Assembly: GCF_001636845.1 (NCBI RefSeq) | Contig: NZ_LITT01000023.1 | Coordinates: 310,001-374,000, forward strand | Source of the DNA: Clostridium ljungdahlii | GTDB lineage: Bacteria > Bacillota > Clostridia > Clostridiales > Clostridiaceae | DNA: 64,000 bases | Reading direction: 5' to 3' | Shown here: positions 6,088 to 63,947 of the stretch, piece by piece | Numbering within the stretch: position 1 is the first letter of the stretch | Layout: each line of letters starts with the position of its first letter | Notes under the pieces: generated by a model | What the model saw: the letters and a program-made list of their open reading frames with translations, nothing else | Told to the model about the DNA's origin: nothing | Databases searched by the model: none | Translations under genes and position numbers: made by a program

Positions 6088-6145
6088 TAATGCTATTATA
6101 TATTTTTTTAAAGAAAATTTATTAATTTTATAAACAGAGTTCTTG

Positions 6146-6166
6146 GCATCAGATGAAATCTGATGC
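6146..6166. repeat. short perfect hairpin
   Basis: GCATCAGAT-GAA-ATCTGATGC, a 9-bp perfect stem with a three-base loop, just before the much longer hairpin at 6177-6298. No T tract follows on either strand, so it does not look like a normal terminator. Confidence 0.6.
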
Positions 6167-6176
6167 TTAGAAATTG

Positions 6177-6298
6177 TTATCCAGGGACGTAACCGCTCTT
6201 TACTACCACTTTGAGAAAAGCAGATATCCCAAATCTTTGATTTGGTGATAGTCGCTTTTCTCAAAGTAGGGGTATTAGAGCGGGTAGTCATCGGATAA
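6177..6298. repeat. 122-nt long imperfect stem-loop, unassigned
   Basis: The whole segment folds on itself: TTATCC (6177-6182) with GGATAA (6293-6298), ACCGCTCT with AGAGCGGG, CTTTGAGAAAAGC with GCTTTTCTCAAAG (13 bp perfect), and CCAAAT with ATTTGG around a CTTTG loop. An incidental reading frame crosses it on the minus strand but has no coding character. It could be a MITE-like palindrome or a structured transcript. It fills the gap between the peptidase promoter and the regulator pseudogene, and I find no second copy in the window. Confidence 0.7.
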
Positions 6299-33127: not shown

Positions 33128-33694
33128 ATGGAAAATCTACAGCTTGAAATTTTACTTGAAAGAGCCCAAAGTGGAGACAAAAATGCAGTAGAGAATATAT
33201 GCAGTAAATTCAATGGTATGGTAATTAATATGGCAAAGTGTACCTACATAAAGGGATATGATATGGATGATTTGATACAGGAAGGGCGGTATTCTGTTAT
33301 AAAGGCAATTGGAATGTATGATATAAATTCCAAATATCCATTTGCTGCCTATGTAAAAAGTTCTGTTAAAAAGAACTTCTATAACATGATAAGAACCAAT
33401 ATAAGGAAAGTAAGCTGCTGCAGCCTCTACAGCAAAAATGATGAAGGGTGCGAGTTCATAAATATGATAGCTTCAAGTGAAAATATTGAAGAGGACTTGA
33501 TAAAAAGAAAGCTAATGATTAAATTAAAGAACTCTATGGACAAGCTTCCTGAGGATAAAAGAAATTTAATATATTGGTACTATATTGAAAATAAAAGCTT
33601 AAATGAGTATGCTGAAAAAGAGGGAATCTCTTATAGAACGGCGGTATACAGAAAGAGGAAAGCCCTGGAGAGTTTAAAGAGCTTTCTAGTTTGA
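33128..33694 (+). CDS. ECF-like sigma factor, second of a tandem pair
   Basis: 188 residues. Region 2 is clear (KGYDMDDLIQEGRYSVIKAIGMYDINSKYPFAAYVKSSVKKNFYNMIR, about 38-86). Region 4 is KLPEDKRNLIYWYYIENKSLNEYAEKEGISYRTAVYRKRKALESL (about 138-183). Cysteine pairs at CCSL are unusual. The AGGGGGGAGAAAAGT ribosome site is strong. With the DUF1659/DUF2922 genes upstream and the polysaccharide operon downstream, it is a candidate regulator of surface genes (inference). Confidence 0.8.
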   Translation: MENLQLEILLERAQSGDKNAVENICSKFNGMVINMAKCTYIKGYDMDDLIQEGRYSVIKAIGMYDINSKYPFAAYVKSSVKKNFYNMIRTNIRKVSCCSLYSKNDEGCEFINMIASSENIEEDLIKRKLMIKLKNSMDKLPEDKRNLIYWYYIENKSLNEYAEKEGISYRTAVYRKRKALESLKSFLV

Positions 33695-33699
33695 AAGTT

Positions 33700-33911
33700 G
33701 ACTTATACCAGCCATATACTAACAAATTTCATCACACTAAAAACTTTTAATAAGTCTAAAGTTCGGTATTTTGAAAATCTAAAGAAGCTTATATAAACTC
33801 GTACCTCAGACATATATAAGCTTCTAAGGTTTTCCAAAATACCTCACTAAGACTTATACAAAAAGTTTTTAAGTGTGATTTTAATTTTGTTAGTATATTT
33901 ATGTATAAGCT
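33700..33911. repeat. long hairpin repeat, copy A
   Basis: About 95 bases on each side pair imperfectly. ACTTATAC and CATATACTAACAAA on the left match TTTGTTAGTATAT and GTATAAG on the right. CACACTAAAAACTTTT matches AAAAAGTTTTTAAGTGTG, and GGTATTTTGAAAA matches TTTTCCAAAATACC. The tip is a stem AGAAGCTTATATA / TATATAAGCTTCT with the loop AACTCGTACCTCAGACA at 33796-33812. A second tip (33978-33994) and a third, opposite copy (62149-62362) keep the loop but change the stem. It has no coding frame. Confidence 0.8.
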
Positions 33912-33962
33912 CAAATTTCAATTAGAAAGCTTATATGTAAGTATGAAAAAATTTATAAAAAT

Positions 33963-34224
33963 CTAAGGGCTTTTGAAAACTCGTACCTCAAACAATTCAA
34001 AAGCCCTAAGTTTTAAATAAATGTTCTACTTAGATTTATGTCAAAAATATTTAAATGCACTTGCTTATTGTAAAATATTTCTGCGCATAAGCTTATTTTT
34101 AGGTTTAGAAAGCTTTACGTGAAGTTTCTAAAATACCTCACTAAGACTTATACAAAAAGTTTTTAAGTGTGATTCTAATTTTGTTAGTATATTTATGTAT
34201 AAGTTCAAATTTCAATTAGAAAGC
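33963..34224. repeat. long hairpin repeat, copy B (tip plus right arm)
   Basis: CTAAGGGCTTTTGAA / TTCAAAAGCCCTAAG forms a stem around AACTCGTACCTCAAACA (33978-33994). After diverged sequence, 34127-34224 is an almost base-perfect copy of the right arm at 33835-33930, with one to three differences. The left arm is not recognisable, so this looks like a partial tandem duplication of copy A. Confidence 0.75.
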
Positions 34225-34240
34225 CTAAATGAAAAGTTGA

Positions 34241-34270
34241 AGCGTCTGGCAAATCCAGACGCTATTTTTT
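34241..34270 (+). terminator. Rho-independent terminator
   Basis: AGCGTCTGG (34241-34249) and CCAGACGCT (34255-34263) form a perfect stem, followed by ATTTTTT. It insulates the repeat region or the sigma genes from the polysaccharide promoter downstream. Confidence 0.88.
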
Positions 34271-35458: not shown

Positions 35459-35594
35459 ATACAAATTTTAGATACTTAAAATCGTCTCGCTGCCGCGTTT
35501 TGATTATCTAAATGCCATAAATATATGAAATTCACAGTTAAAAAATTGTATTTTAGCTGTGGAGGGGCGAAGCCTGCCCCAAAGGAGGACAATT
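35459..35594 (+). promoter_or_regulatory. conserved leader RNA candidate upstream of LoaP (copy 1)
   Basis: This non-coding block is strongly similar to 63292-63428 although neither encodes protein. TTAGATA (35468-35474) pairs with TATCTAA (35505-35511) around AAAATCG...CGTTTT and a GCTGCCG loop. TTCACAG pairs with CTGTGGA. GGGGC-GAAGCCT-GCCCC forms a hairpin just before the AAAGGAGG ribosome site, which could limit translation. Placement before an antiterminator gene suggests a LoaP recognition or autoregulation element (inference). Confidence 0.65.
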
Positions 35595-36101
35595 ATGTGG
35601 TATGCAGTTCAAGTTAGAACAGGAGAGGAAGAAAAGATAAAATTTATTTGTAATAAGCTGATATCTAAGAGTGTTCTAGAGGAATGTTTTATCCCTTATT
35701 ATGAGAAGAAGATTAAATATATGGGTAAATGGCATATAACAAATGAAATATTGTTCCCTGGATATATATTTATGATTAGTGACTACATAGATGATTTGCT
35801 ATTAAGTGTGAAAAGGATTCCTAAATTAATTAAAATTCTTGGAGATGGAAATGAGATAATACCTCTATACGATAGAGAAATAGAATTTTTAACGAGGTTT
35901 GGAAAAAAGGAGCATTTTATTAAAATGTCCTATGGATATATAGAAAATGACAAGACTATAATAACAGATGGCCCAATGAAGGATTATGAAGGAACTATAA
36001 AAAGAATTGATAGGCATAAAAGAAAAGCAGTAATAGAAATAGAGTTTTTTGGAAGGGTTATGGATGTTAGTGTTGGTGTAGAAATTGTAAGGAAGATATA
36101 G
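35595..36101 (+). CDS. loaP: LoaP-type NusG paralogue, transcription antiterminator
   Basis: 168 residues. The N-terminal NGN domain begins MWYAVQVRTGEEEKIKFICNKLI and includes the FIPYYEKKIKYMGKWH and FPGYIFM blocks. A C-terminal KOW domain reads DGPMKDYEGTIKRIDRHKRKAVIEIEFFGRVMDVSVGVEIV. The order and length match specialised NusG proteins (LoaP, UpxY) that let RNA polymerase read through terminators in long operons for polysaccharides or antibiotics. Its place near the front of a 20-kb operon agrees. AAAGGAGG sets the ATG at 35595. Confidence 0.88.
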   Translation: MWYAVQVRTGEEEKIKFICNKLISKSVLEECFIPYYEKKIKYMGKWHITNEILFPGYIFMISDYIDDLLLSVKRIPKLIKILGDGNEIIPLYDREIEFLTRFGKKEHFIKMSYGYIENDKTIITDGPMKDYEGTIKRIDRHKRKAVIEIEFFGRVMDVSVGVEIVRKI

Positions 36102-45171: not shown

Positions 45172-45829
45172 TTTGGATGTTATAGTTAAGTAGTTATACT
45201 CAACGTGATTTTTGAGCAGTAACCACAAATATGTGAAACAGTTATTATAAAATTTTATTATTTAGGCCCTTAAAGAATCAGAGGAAAAGTTATCACTGTC
45301 ATACATTTAGAATAATGATAAACTTTTATAGACTTCCTAAACCAAAATTATATGTAAGTATATTTGAACTAAAACCATCAATTAGCTATATTCTATAAAT
45401 GATAATATAAAGAGCTTCTGCCTTAATTGAGGATGTACAGTTCTATGAAGGTTGCACATTGGAAAGACGATAAAATTCTTACTGCTTGAAATAGCAGTCA
45501 ACATAAAGCTTAGCCAACAGTGTTGTACCGAGTCTTGTGTTGTTTATAGTAATATAAGCTGTGAAGCATAGACAGGAAAATTGTAGGTCAGAATAAAGTG
45601 AAAGGAAAAATTAAGTCCCGATATTGAACCAAATATGTGGAATAGCCGACTTTTTCTCTATGAGGAAGGCAGAAATCAAAATTCGTTTTCGCGGGAATGT
45701 TTAATTGTTCCCGTGATTCGTACCCACGGCATGTAATTAAATGAAATTTATAGCAACAAGGAATAGGATAGGATCTAACAAGCTGTATTGGACCTTACCC
45801 ACTTTGATAGATATGGGGGAACTTTGTTA
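45172..45829. other. gene-free region
   Basis: No frame with coding character on either strand. CGCGGGAA (near 45690) and TTCCCGTG (near 45708) form a small hairpin. The base composition matches the surrounding imported block, so this may be decayed coding DNA that I cannot identify. Confidence 0.4.
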
Positions 45830-62079: not shown

Positions 62080-62104
62080 CAGGGTAGAGTTACCCTGTTT
62101 TAAT
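62080..62104 (+). terminator. terminator, third copy of the CAGGGTA stem
   Basis: CAGGGTA (62080-62086), GAGT loop, TACCCTG (62091-62097), then TTTTAA. It follows about 55 bases of possible gene residue (an out-of-frame ENLDKELNEIQKEVFDKDSR) after the coiled-coil gene. Confidence 0.75.
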
Positions 62105-62148
62105 TTTTGTTATATCCACCAGTTAGTGTGCATTTTCTAACTTAAAAA

Positions 62149-62362
62149 TCAACTTATATATAAAATATACTAACAAAATTGAAAACACTTTTAAAAACTT
62201 TTCTATAAGTCTTAGCGAGGTATTTTAGAAAATCTTAGGAGCTTAGATATGTTTGAGGTACGAGTTTAGCTGAGCTTCTTAGATTTTCAAAATACCGAGC
62301 TTTAGACTTATTAAAGTTTTTAAGGTGATGAAATTTGTTAGTATATGGCTGATATAAGTTGA
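62149..62362. repeat. long hairpin repeat, copy C (inverted)
   Basis: ATCAACTTATA (62149-62159) pairs with TATAAGTTGAT at the far end. Next, ATATACTAACAAA pairs with TTTGTTAGTATAT, AAAAACTTTT with AAAGTTTTTAA, and GAGGTATTTTAGAAAATCTTAG with its partner ending CTTAGATTTTCAAAATACC. The tip is TGTTTGAGGTACGAGTT (62250-62266), the reverse complement of the loop in copies A and B, on a different paired stem. Like copy A it precedes a sugar-transferase/LoaP pair. No convincing promoter or gene is seen between it and 62603. Confidence 0.8.
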
Positions 62363-62602
62363 TTTTTCGTTTAGAACTACTACTAAGTTGATGGTTATTT
62401 TTTTGCCTAAAATTACATACTTTTCTAGACAAATTGCAGTATATATCTACCCCAATTTGACAAAAAATCATAGTTTAGCATTTTTTCATTAAACTTGACA
62501 AAACTGCTTATATTTTAAACTTGTTTATACTCAAATACCACATTATTATTAGATATGAGGGGGTTATGTAGACCTAATTGAAAAAAAGGTGGGGATTTTC
62601 CA

Positions 62603-63291: not shown

Positions 63292-63428
63292 AATACAAAT
63301 TTTAGAGAATTAAAATCGTCGCATTGCCGCGTTTTGACTATCTAAATGCCATAAAGATATAGAATTCACAGTTAAAAAATTGTATTTTACTTGTGAAATG
63401 GCGAAGCCTGTCCAAAAGGAGGAAAATT
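63292..63428 (+). promoter_or_regulatory. conserved leader RNA candidate upstream of LoaP (copy 2)
   Basis: The same order of elements as 35459-35594: TTAGAGA...TATCTAA around AAAATCG...GCCGCGTTTT, then TTCACA paired with TGTGAA, then GGCGAAGCCTGTCC just before AAAAGGAGG. TTCACAG/CTGTGGA of copy 1 becomes TTCACA/TGTGAA here, so pairing is kept while bases change. The similarity of this non-coding block is nearly as high as that of the genes around it. Confidence 0.65.
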
Positions 63429-63947
63429 ATGTGGTATGCAGTTCAAGTTAGAACAGGAGATGAAGAAAAGATAAAGCTTATTTGTAATAAGTTGATATCC
63501 AATGATGTTCTACAAGAATGTTTTATACCTTATTATGAGAAGAAGATAAAATATATGACAAAATGGCATATAACAACTGAAATATTATTTCCCGGATATA
63601 TCTTTATGGTTAGTAATCGTATAAATGATTTGATATTGGATGTAAAAAAGATCCCTGATTTAATTAAAATTCTTGGGGATGAAAATGAGATAATACCTCT
63701 ATATGATAGGGAAATAGAATTTTTAATGAGATTTGGCAAAGAAGATCATCTTGTTAAAATATCATATGGATATATAGAAAATGACAAAATTGTAATAACA
63801 GATGGCCCGATGAAGGGTTATGAAGGAACTATAAAAAAGATTGATAGGCATAAGAGAAAAGCAATAATACAAGTGGAGTTTTTTGGAAGAACTATGGAAG
63901 TTAGTGTTGGTGTAGAGATTGTAAGGAAGGTACAAAGTGAAATTTGA
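63429..63947 (+). CDS. loaP: LoaP-type NusG paralogue, second copy
   Basis: 172 residues. MWYAVQVRTGDEEKIKLICNKLISNDVLQECFIPYYEKKIKYMTKWHITTEILFPGYIFMVS, then a KOW domain DGPMKGYEGTIKKIDRHKRKAIIQVEFFGRTMEVSVGVEIV. It is a close paralogue of the 35595 protein; differences are concentrated in the middle of the NGN-KOW linker region (NRINDLILDVKKIPD). The AAAAGGAGG ribosome site is the same. It probably acts on its own downstream operon. Confidence 0.88.
   Translation: MWYAVQVRTGDEEKIKLICNKLISNDVLQECFIPYYEKKIKYMTKWHITTEILFPGYIFMVSNRINDLILDVKKIPDLIKILGDENEIIPLYDREIEFLMRFGKEDHLVKISYGYIENDKIVITDGPMKGYEGTIKKIDRHKRKAIIQVEFFGRTMEVSVGVEIVRKVQSEI

Follow-up and report, generated by a model that had tools for sequence, protein, structure and literature searches.

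A fold-back repeat with a constant loop, found mostly in sense orientation behind stop codons of Clostridium ljungdahlii and relatives: a probable IS630-type MITE

The genome of Clostridium ljungdahlii carries a large family of fold-back repeats which share a constant 17-base loop and lie mostly in sense orientation behind stop codons. We think it rather probable that this repeat, which is likely an IS630-type MITE, would be transcribed as a giant hairpin in the 3'-UTR. The ends, copy number, placement and orientation of the copies, their conserved loop and their recurrent A·A-mismatch motifs, on which this reading is built, can all be seen in the DNA sequence. As a kind, palindromic MITEs behind genes are known already; what we hold to be new is a loop that stays fixed on giant arms which covary, the spacing of the mismatches, and the spacing from the stop codon together with the sense orientation. 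With few to more than 100 copies per genome, the family marks the 3' ends of genes in acetogens and in many other Clostridiaceae.

Results and discussion

Hairpin copies in the window

The window is a stretch of 64,000 nucleotides of C. ljungdahlii DNA, the features of which are listed in Table 1. The initial annotation had described three hairpin tips with the same 17-base loop on stems that differ in sequence and are still paired. All three loops were recovered with 0 mismatches, and the stems pair as stated; in shuffled sequences the loop is matched 0.15 times on average at up to 3 mismatches, with a maximum of 2. The inverted arms, given there as about 95 bp, do exist but are longer, namely about 115 bp per side in copies 1 and 3. 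The predicted RNA folds reach -100.4 kcal/mol for copy 1 (33680-33932, z -15.9) and -77.1 kcal/mol for copy 3 (62135-62376, minus strand, z -13.1), and copy 2, in which most of the 5' arm is gone, reaches -37.6 kcal/mol (33931-34110, z -4.2). Copy 3 is an exception to the placement in sense behind a stop codon that is analysed below; it lies after a terminator-like hairpin and is overlapped by an ORF of 78 aa.

That the hairpin matches no named RNA was borne out by Rfam: no hairpin reached the gathering cut-off in the whole window, and the 14 matches listed for 33650-34270 scored far below it. As all scores were under the cut-off, an RNA family known to Rfam is ruled out. The sole Rfam match over the cut-off in the window is a group II intron domain.

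Table 1. Features of the window, by position in the 64,000-nucleotide stretch
Feature	Position	Strand	Remarks
Element copy 1, A type, full-length giant hairpin	33676..33933	+	loop 33796-33812; boundaries from ends compared by eye with TATAGRGTTTCTAA/TTAGAAACYCTATA
CTAAAG/CTAAG motif pairs of copy 1	33756-33761 with 33847-33851; 33779-33784 with 33824-33828		by eye
Element copy 2, B type, 5' arm truncated	33934..34113 (approx.)	+	loop 33978-33994
Orphan 3' arm of a further A-type element	34117..34232 (approx.)	+	inside a 92% repeat of 33831-33947
Element copy 3, A type, full-length giant hairpin	62131..62381 (approx.)	-	loop 62250-62266
Terminator-like hairpin near copy 3	62080-62108		by eye
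ORF of 78 aa	62235-62471	-	overlaps copy 3
Sigma-70-family factor gene	33128..33694	+	stop codon 33692-33694 inside the first ~20 nt of copy 1
Intrinsic-terminator-like stem-loop with T run	34241..34263	+	downstream of the element cluster
LoaP gene	35559-36101		behind a sugar transferase gene
LoaP gene	63393-63947		behind a sugar transferase gene
Group II intron domain match	45489-45726	+	RF02005
Second multi-copy structured repeat	6133-6297	+

Copy number and distribution

With up to 2 mismatches allowed, the 4.36-Mb genome of C. ljungdahlii has 94 copies of the loop, compared with 0 matches of a reversed pattern. Most of these loops form the tip of a giant hairpin of about 258 bp, and in 85 copies the arms passed a test of pairing over 110 nt. 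When the loop pattern was searched for with at most 1 mismatch in 206 genomes of the family, 10 genomes were matched (91, 74, 87, 121, 13, 8, 8, 6, 2 and 1 matches). Two loop matches were rejected as chance, both being loops without a hairpin: locus L104 of genome G120, which is the single match of that genome, and locus L129 of Proteus hauseri.

A covariance model, R1, was built on 31 diverse inner hairpins and matched in 32 of 200 family genomes and in 10 of 46 genera, with up to 17 matches scored per genome. The hairpin-bearing relatives include C. ragsdalei, C. thailandense, C. magnum and C. rhizosphaerae. The spread is patchy: neither the pattern nor R1 found a match in 10 of the 13 genomes of C. 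ljungdahlii's own genus. In genome G131, 26 strong matches were counted in the 400 kb examined, which corresponds to about one copy per 15 kb. Genome G132, from another species of the same genus, has 5 in an equally long stretch, a roughly fivefold difference in density; these two stretches are too diverged and not colinear, and are therefore unusable for a presence/absence comparison.

Five tandem hairpins with spacings of 299 and about 470 nt lie behind one gene in genome G175 (locus L302), a case of segmental amplification. From this one tandem array inspected, a gene cassette or attC-like array was rejected. A virus-borne element was rejected likewise (0 viral contigs with the 18-base loop pattern), as was a plasmid- or phage-borne one, copy 1 having neither a plasmid nor a phage match.

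Conserved parts of the hairpin

Many relatives found by R1 lack the exact loop and show loops of the kind AACTC-N(5-9)-[CG]TCARACA on quite different stems (e.g. AACTCGCTACGCTCAAACA); the loop is retained across genera although the outer stems differ. In C. ljungdahlii itself two subtypes, A and B, differ in stem sequence. In the different genera the stem tends to retain one CTAAG facing another, a pairing that is self-complementary except for an A·A mismatch, and this motif is mostly situated at distances of 13/14 and about 36 nt to the loop, the two sites being roughly two helical turns apart. By a strict definition, at least one A·A-mismatch site is present in 66 of 85 C. ljungdahlii copies and at least two in 35 of 85.

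Orthologous copies of C. ljungdahlii and two relatives were compared in 25 pairs with flanks 95.8% identical, 8 of 33 pairs having been left out because of an identity below 80%. Between these orthologues 6 of 425 loop sites had changed (1.4%), and the arms changed at 5.7% per site, about the pace of the flanks (4.2%). The conserved parts of the hairpin are the loop and the repeated A·A-mismatch motif. In C. magnum (L151:4890-5000) the 5' arm of a hairpin close behind tRNA genes is interrupted by a stretch of about 90 nt with dyads of its own.

Position relative to stop codons

Among the 94 C. ljungdahlii copies, 66 have a stop codon 95-165 nt before the loop in sense only and 1 in antisense only; 4 have both and 23, including copy 3 of the window, have neither and do not follow the rule. 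The binomial p for 66 to 1 is 9e-19 if the relatedness of the copies is ignored. In other genomes the same count gave 104 sense-only, 6 antisense-only, 12 both and 61 neither, over 183 copies, among which are orthologues and both chance loops. The corresponding numbers for G131 are 16, 2, 3 and 5 (n=26). A set of 25 copies taken from other genomes contained 20 with a sense stop at 83-177 nt ahead of the loop; in 7 of the 20 an antisense stop lay in this range as well, and antisense-only cases numbered 0.

The left end was recognised (at most 3 mismatches) in 64 of 94 C. ljungdahlii copies, 54 of which have a sense stop, so that 30 and a further 10 copies were left out; in the remaining 54 the left end lies at a median of 6.5 nt after the stop, with 52 at -21 to 30 nt. 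In detail, 42 left ends are found 0-30 nt behind the stop, 10 overlap it and 2 are further away. In 6 copies the TAG within the TATAG end is the gene's own stop codon. As a control, 8.9% of the TA sites in hairpin-free spacers of genome G006 have a facing stop no more than 30 nt away, or 12.2% among the gene-end-facing ones.

Seventeen inverted hairpin pairs exist in C. ljungdahlii. About half (9, by eye) lie between convergent genes with one hairpin behind each, and the remaining pairs are located between tandem genes. A scan for terminators behind the copies found 1 in 51 single copies and 0 in 34 copies before another hairpin; control stops gave 45 of 543 and random windows 6 of 400, and the numbers are too small to decide.

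With a sense bias of 66 to 1 at stop codons, an old question about the dispersed palindromes behind bacterial genes becomes testable, namely whether they regulate mRNA ends as portable elements or are junk kept where it does no harm.

Ends of the element and probable relation to IS630

The element ends begin with TATAG and have TA on both sides, and the block ACTTATAC stands at the same distance from the end as in the IS630-family transposons of the clade. As ends, TA flanks and block all match IS630, the repeat is most likely, judged from these sequence features, a non-autonomous IS630-type element (MITE). In G131 many sharp units of 260-262 bp (TATAGGGTTTGTAA...TTACAAACCCTATA) have TA on both sides, and TA flanks were seen in nearly all G131 copies inspected. 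ACTTAT occupies positions 26-31 from the TATAG end in hairpins of both C. ljungdahlii and G131 (TATAGAGTTTCTAAACGAAAAATCAACTTATAC), and likewise in the IS630 copies of C. magnum (1,198 bp, ends TATAGGGTTCAA.../...TTGAACCCTATA) and C. thailandense (end TATAGATAACCAC...). The IS630 end of C. ragsdalei, GATAGGGTTTTTAAC, which the automatic end-finder missed, shows the near-match AACCTAT by eye. The letters between TATAG and ACTTAT are only partly common to hairpins and IS630 copies. Some C. thailandense hairpins start with the IS630 end itself; with up to 2 mismatches allowed, 12 of the 33 copies in C. thailandense and 3 of the 7 in C. magnum have TATAGATAACCAC at one end or both. The C. magnum IS ends in TATAGGGTTCAA, and the ends of the hairpins in that genome differ.

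The repeat thus shows the traits of a MITE, being short (about 258 bp in C. ljungdahlii, as given above, and 260-262 bp in G131), multi-copy and without a transposase gene, and through TATAG and ACTTAT it appears to have terminal repeats in common with IS630. No ORF of at least 80 aa is contained in copies 1 and 2. IS630 copies or fragments are found at the 3' end of hairpins in C. ljungdahlii and, at two identical loci and on a third contig, in C. magnum; within about 200 nt of a hairpin in C. ragsdalei, which has an IS630 transposase at L379:937-2031; and, by coordinates only, beside a hairpin in G006. In C. thailandense they lie behind a 3'-arm-like end without a recognised loop. The 364-aa transposase is a member of IS630 (NF033545, 169 bits; DDE_3), and relatives of it are present in 25 of 194 genomes, none of them in G131. 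PF13358 had no match in G131, G132 or G006, although G006 nonetheless has transposase fragments; in our reading the mover of G131 has been lost or is unrecognised. An autonomous element with identical ends was rejected for G131, where two exact-end pairs 3.5 and 4.2 kb apart enclose ordinary genes.

Palindromes of 122 bp with the same ends as the G131 units exist. In addition, 59-60-bp palindromes with TATAGRGTTT ends and no loop, either minimal or collapsed copies, were seen in G131 (L367, L368, L369) and in C. ljungdahlii (L371).

Comparison of orthologous sites gave no clean case of an empty site with a target duplication; sites that lacked a copy proved to be internally deleted, to be a double site that had merged, or, in a region that looks paralogous, to be nearly empty. 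The initial annotation had held that copies at random sites with identical stems, or with target duplications, would speak for an ordinary MITE, and to a large extent this is the picture obtained: dispersed copies, common ends and TA flanks are there, but the clean empty site is missing. Ten IS630 copies have no clear orientation to the preceding gene, in a sample that is too small, and the orientation bias of the hairpins is therefore not attributable to the transposase on present counts.

Covariation of the arms

In 31 aligned hairpins 90.1% of cells pair, compared with 33-48% when the partner is slid. Cells changed on both sides number 113 versus 31 in shuffles, and double-sided change was seen in 15 of 20 pairs, a level also reached by 5 of 500 shuffles. 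The stems covary strongly. Between orthologues, 23 of 29 double changes at Watson-Crick sites yield a new Watson-Crick pair. Compensation in the arms is real and ongoing.

The initial annotation took compensatory change around a fixed loop as the mark of a selected RNA (or DNA) structure. In a selected regulatory RNA, pairing of the arms would be under selection at the RNA level and the loop would bind a protein or another RNA, mobility being secondary. Both the covariation and the restored pairs of the orthologues are in favour of such a regulatory RNA, as are the sense orientation and the spacing of the A·A-mismatch motif at 13/14 and about 36 nt. A helix selected in the sense RNA would, however, be expected to carry more G·U than A·C, and no such excess was found on the sense strand in either of two counts. 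In strongly paired columns there were 160 G·U versus 219 A·C (22/33, 54/74, 44/54 and 40/58 in the four sets), and single changes between orthologues gave 41 versus 36. The hairpins kept for the wobble set numbered 305, 85 of them from C. ljungdahlii; those with arms aligned below 68% or too near the end of a locus were dropped. A count over all positions (481 G·U, 793 A·C) was set aside because fixed internal loops bias it. As the wobble signature is missing, the covariation is accounted for no less well by correction of the arms in the DNA. The arms moreover change as fast as the flanks and the family is patchily distributed within its own genus, both of which are at odds with selection on RNA pairing. 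Of the earlier claim, the covariation itself stands, while the signature of a selected sense RNA is absent, and we consider the selected regulatory RNA a doubtful explanation. Our reading is that the palindrome is probably corrected from arm to arm at the DNA level and that selection would act on the loop and the mismatch motifs. For RNA discovery this is a caution, since palindromic mobile DNA can covary without selection on RNA pairing.

Retention of the copies

An alternative at the other extreme is a purely selfish IS630-type MITE, in which the loop and the mismatch motifs serve transposition (e.g. regulation or strand choice) and the neighbourhood of stop codons is simply the safest target. 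The IS630-like ends and TA flanks agree with it, as does the finding that upstream genes mostly differ between lineages: among 199 upstream proteins there were 29 cross-lineage matches (E 1e-8), 8 of them above 70% identity. Insertion into a tolerated site is also indicated for C. thailandense, where 10 of 38 copies are located inside dyads (score at least 18) compared with 4% in swapped controls. Elements lie within the loop of terminator-like dyads at six C. thailandense loci (L143, L158, L150, L161, L168, L209), and most of these dyads are close to GGGGCTGTCGCA..TGCGACAGCCCC. Dyad targets are, however, not enriched in C. ljungdahlii (8 of 85 versus 5%) and hardly in G131 (4 of 34 versus 7%). 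Because the outer arms are symmetrical, a selfish element should be inserted in random orientation, which is contradicted by the ratio of 66 to 1, and the retention of the loop across genera on differing outer stems likewise counts against it. We therefore regard pure selfishness as unlikely.

We prefer to see the repeat as a probable IS630-type MITE that would be transcribed, together with the preceding gene, as a giant 3'-UTR hairpin. An IS630 transposase would recognise ends of the type TATAGRG...CYCTATA and insert the element at TA. The long arms would be kept paired mainly by mismatch copying from arm to arm in the DNA, and copies would be retained where the loop is transcribed in sense, beside the terminating ribosome, as their placement suggests. 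A function of the hairpin at the RNA level, which we infer from sequence, could then involve a putative host factor, an RNase or an RNA-binding protein, that contacts the loop and the A·A-mismatch sites. By analogy with ERIC and YPAL repeats of yersiniae (PMC2229807), this contact might set the 3' end or the stability of the mRNA, or tune expression.

A more speculative proposal, which we put forward tentatively and with well under even confidence, is that the core (AACUC-N-[CG]UCARACA plus the A·A sites) is an RNA module with a function of its own at translation termination, which Clostridiaceae have spread within the ends of resident IS630 elements as a mobile 3'-UTR. If true, 3'-UTRs would be inserted at stop codons, with the insert sometimes supplying the stop, and the transposon ends would be re-tailored in each lineage while the core stays fixed.

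Sugar transferase and LoaP genes

A pair of genes for a sugar transferase (Bac_transf) and LoaP is present twice in the window, and copies upstream of both pairs had been pointed out in the initial annotation. The gene pairs are indeed there, but the association looks coincidental: with 94 copies genome-wide and LoaP over the cut-off in 1 of 28 genomes searched, C. ljungdahlii, the link is treated as chance. An antitermination hairpin recognised by LoaP upstream of polysaccharide operons, to which the two window copies would fit, is thus highly improbable, since 18 of the 28 genomes bear hairpins and LoaP is absent over the cut-off in the others of them, since most copies stand at the 3' end of the preceding gene, and since the RNA known for LoaP in the available part of PMC12691694 is a small UNCG hairpin in 5' leaders. 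The restriction of LoaP to C. ljungdahlii among the 28 genomes suggests acquired and duplicated exopolysaccharide clusters.

Comparison with known repeat families

The ends of Correia/NEMIS elements, which belong to Neisseria and measure 107 or 155 bp, also begin with TATAG, and we know of no conserved apical loop in them. REP palindromes situated close behind stop codons affect translation; REP/BIME differ from the present repeat by their length of 20-40 bp, their GTAG/CGTC tags and their RAYT (Y1) partner. The Y1 transposase domain PF01797 had no match in G131 or G006, both rich in hairpin copies, which rules out an identity with REP/RAYT. In the part of PMC3733652 available to us, REP/BIME are likewise palindromes outside genes, with a hypothesised role in termination and mRNA stability.

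Further likenesses come from the accessible text of PMC2229807. Correia/NEMIS elements are described there as TA-flanked MITEs whose transcripts are proposed substrates of RNase III (PMC2229807). RUP of Streptococcus pneumoniae is a TA-flanked MITE too, with indirect evidence for an IS630 transposase as its mover, but it is 107 bp long and has, in the text available, neither a reported functional motif nor a covarying giant hairpin (PMC2229807). ERIC/IRU is a TA-flanked palindromic MITE that is co-transcribed with its neighbours, and what it does to upstream transcripts depends crucially on its orientation; it differs by its length of 127 bp, its enterobacterial hosts and other ends, and no stop-codon spacing rule is described in that text (PMC2229807). 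The YPAL repeat of Yersinia resembles ours as a large palindromic intergenic mobile repeat whose targets span or adjoin dyads. At about 168 bp it is, according to the same accessible text, not A+T-rich, has termini without TA and makes duplications of 3-26 bp, and a constant loop on changing stems is not described for it, whereas the present hairpin has TA-flanked IS630-like ends (PMC2229807).

Among clostridia, stem-loop repeat families are described in PMC2267715 for C. tetani (Clot-1, 74 bp) and C. perfringens (Clop-1, 93 bp). Both are shorter than our repeat, and an overlap with them is possible. The hairpin family is absent from the literature searched, as far as the accessible texts of the papers go (among them PMC2229807, PMC2267715 and PMC4022347), and a search for the letters of the loop returned only a fragment in an unrelated yeast paper.

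Other repeats

A different palindromic repeat (CCCGGAGGGATATT...AATATCCCTCCGGG, by eye) lies between hairpins in G131 (L331:18577-18885); its 1.5-kb spacer has no ORFs of at least 60 aa. A second multi-copy structured repeat of about 133-180 nt, AACAGARTTC...GGTAGTCATCGGATA, occurs in the window and in loci L065, L070 and L225. Rfam gave no match to it in L065, L070 or the window, and 89 matching pieces of it are found in the C. ljungdahlii genome. In L065 and L225 the insertion point of this repeat coincides exactly with the 5' edge of the hairpin loop, and in L070 it shows the same right junction.
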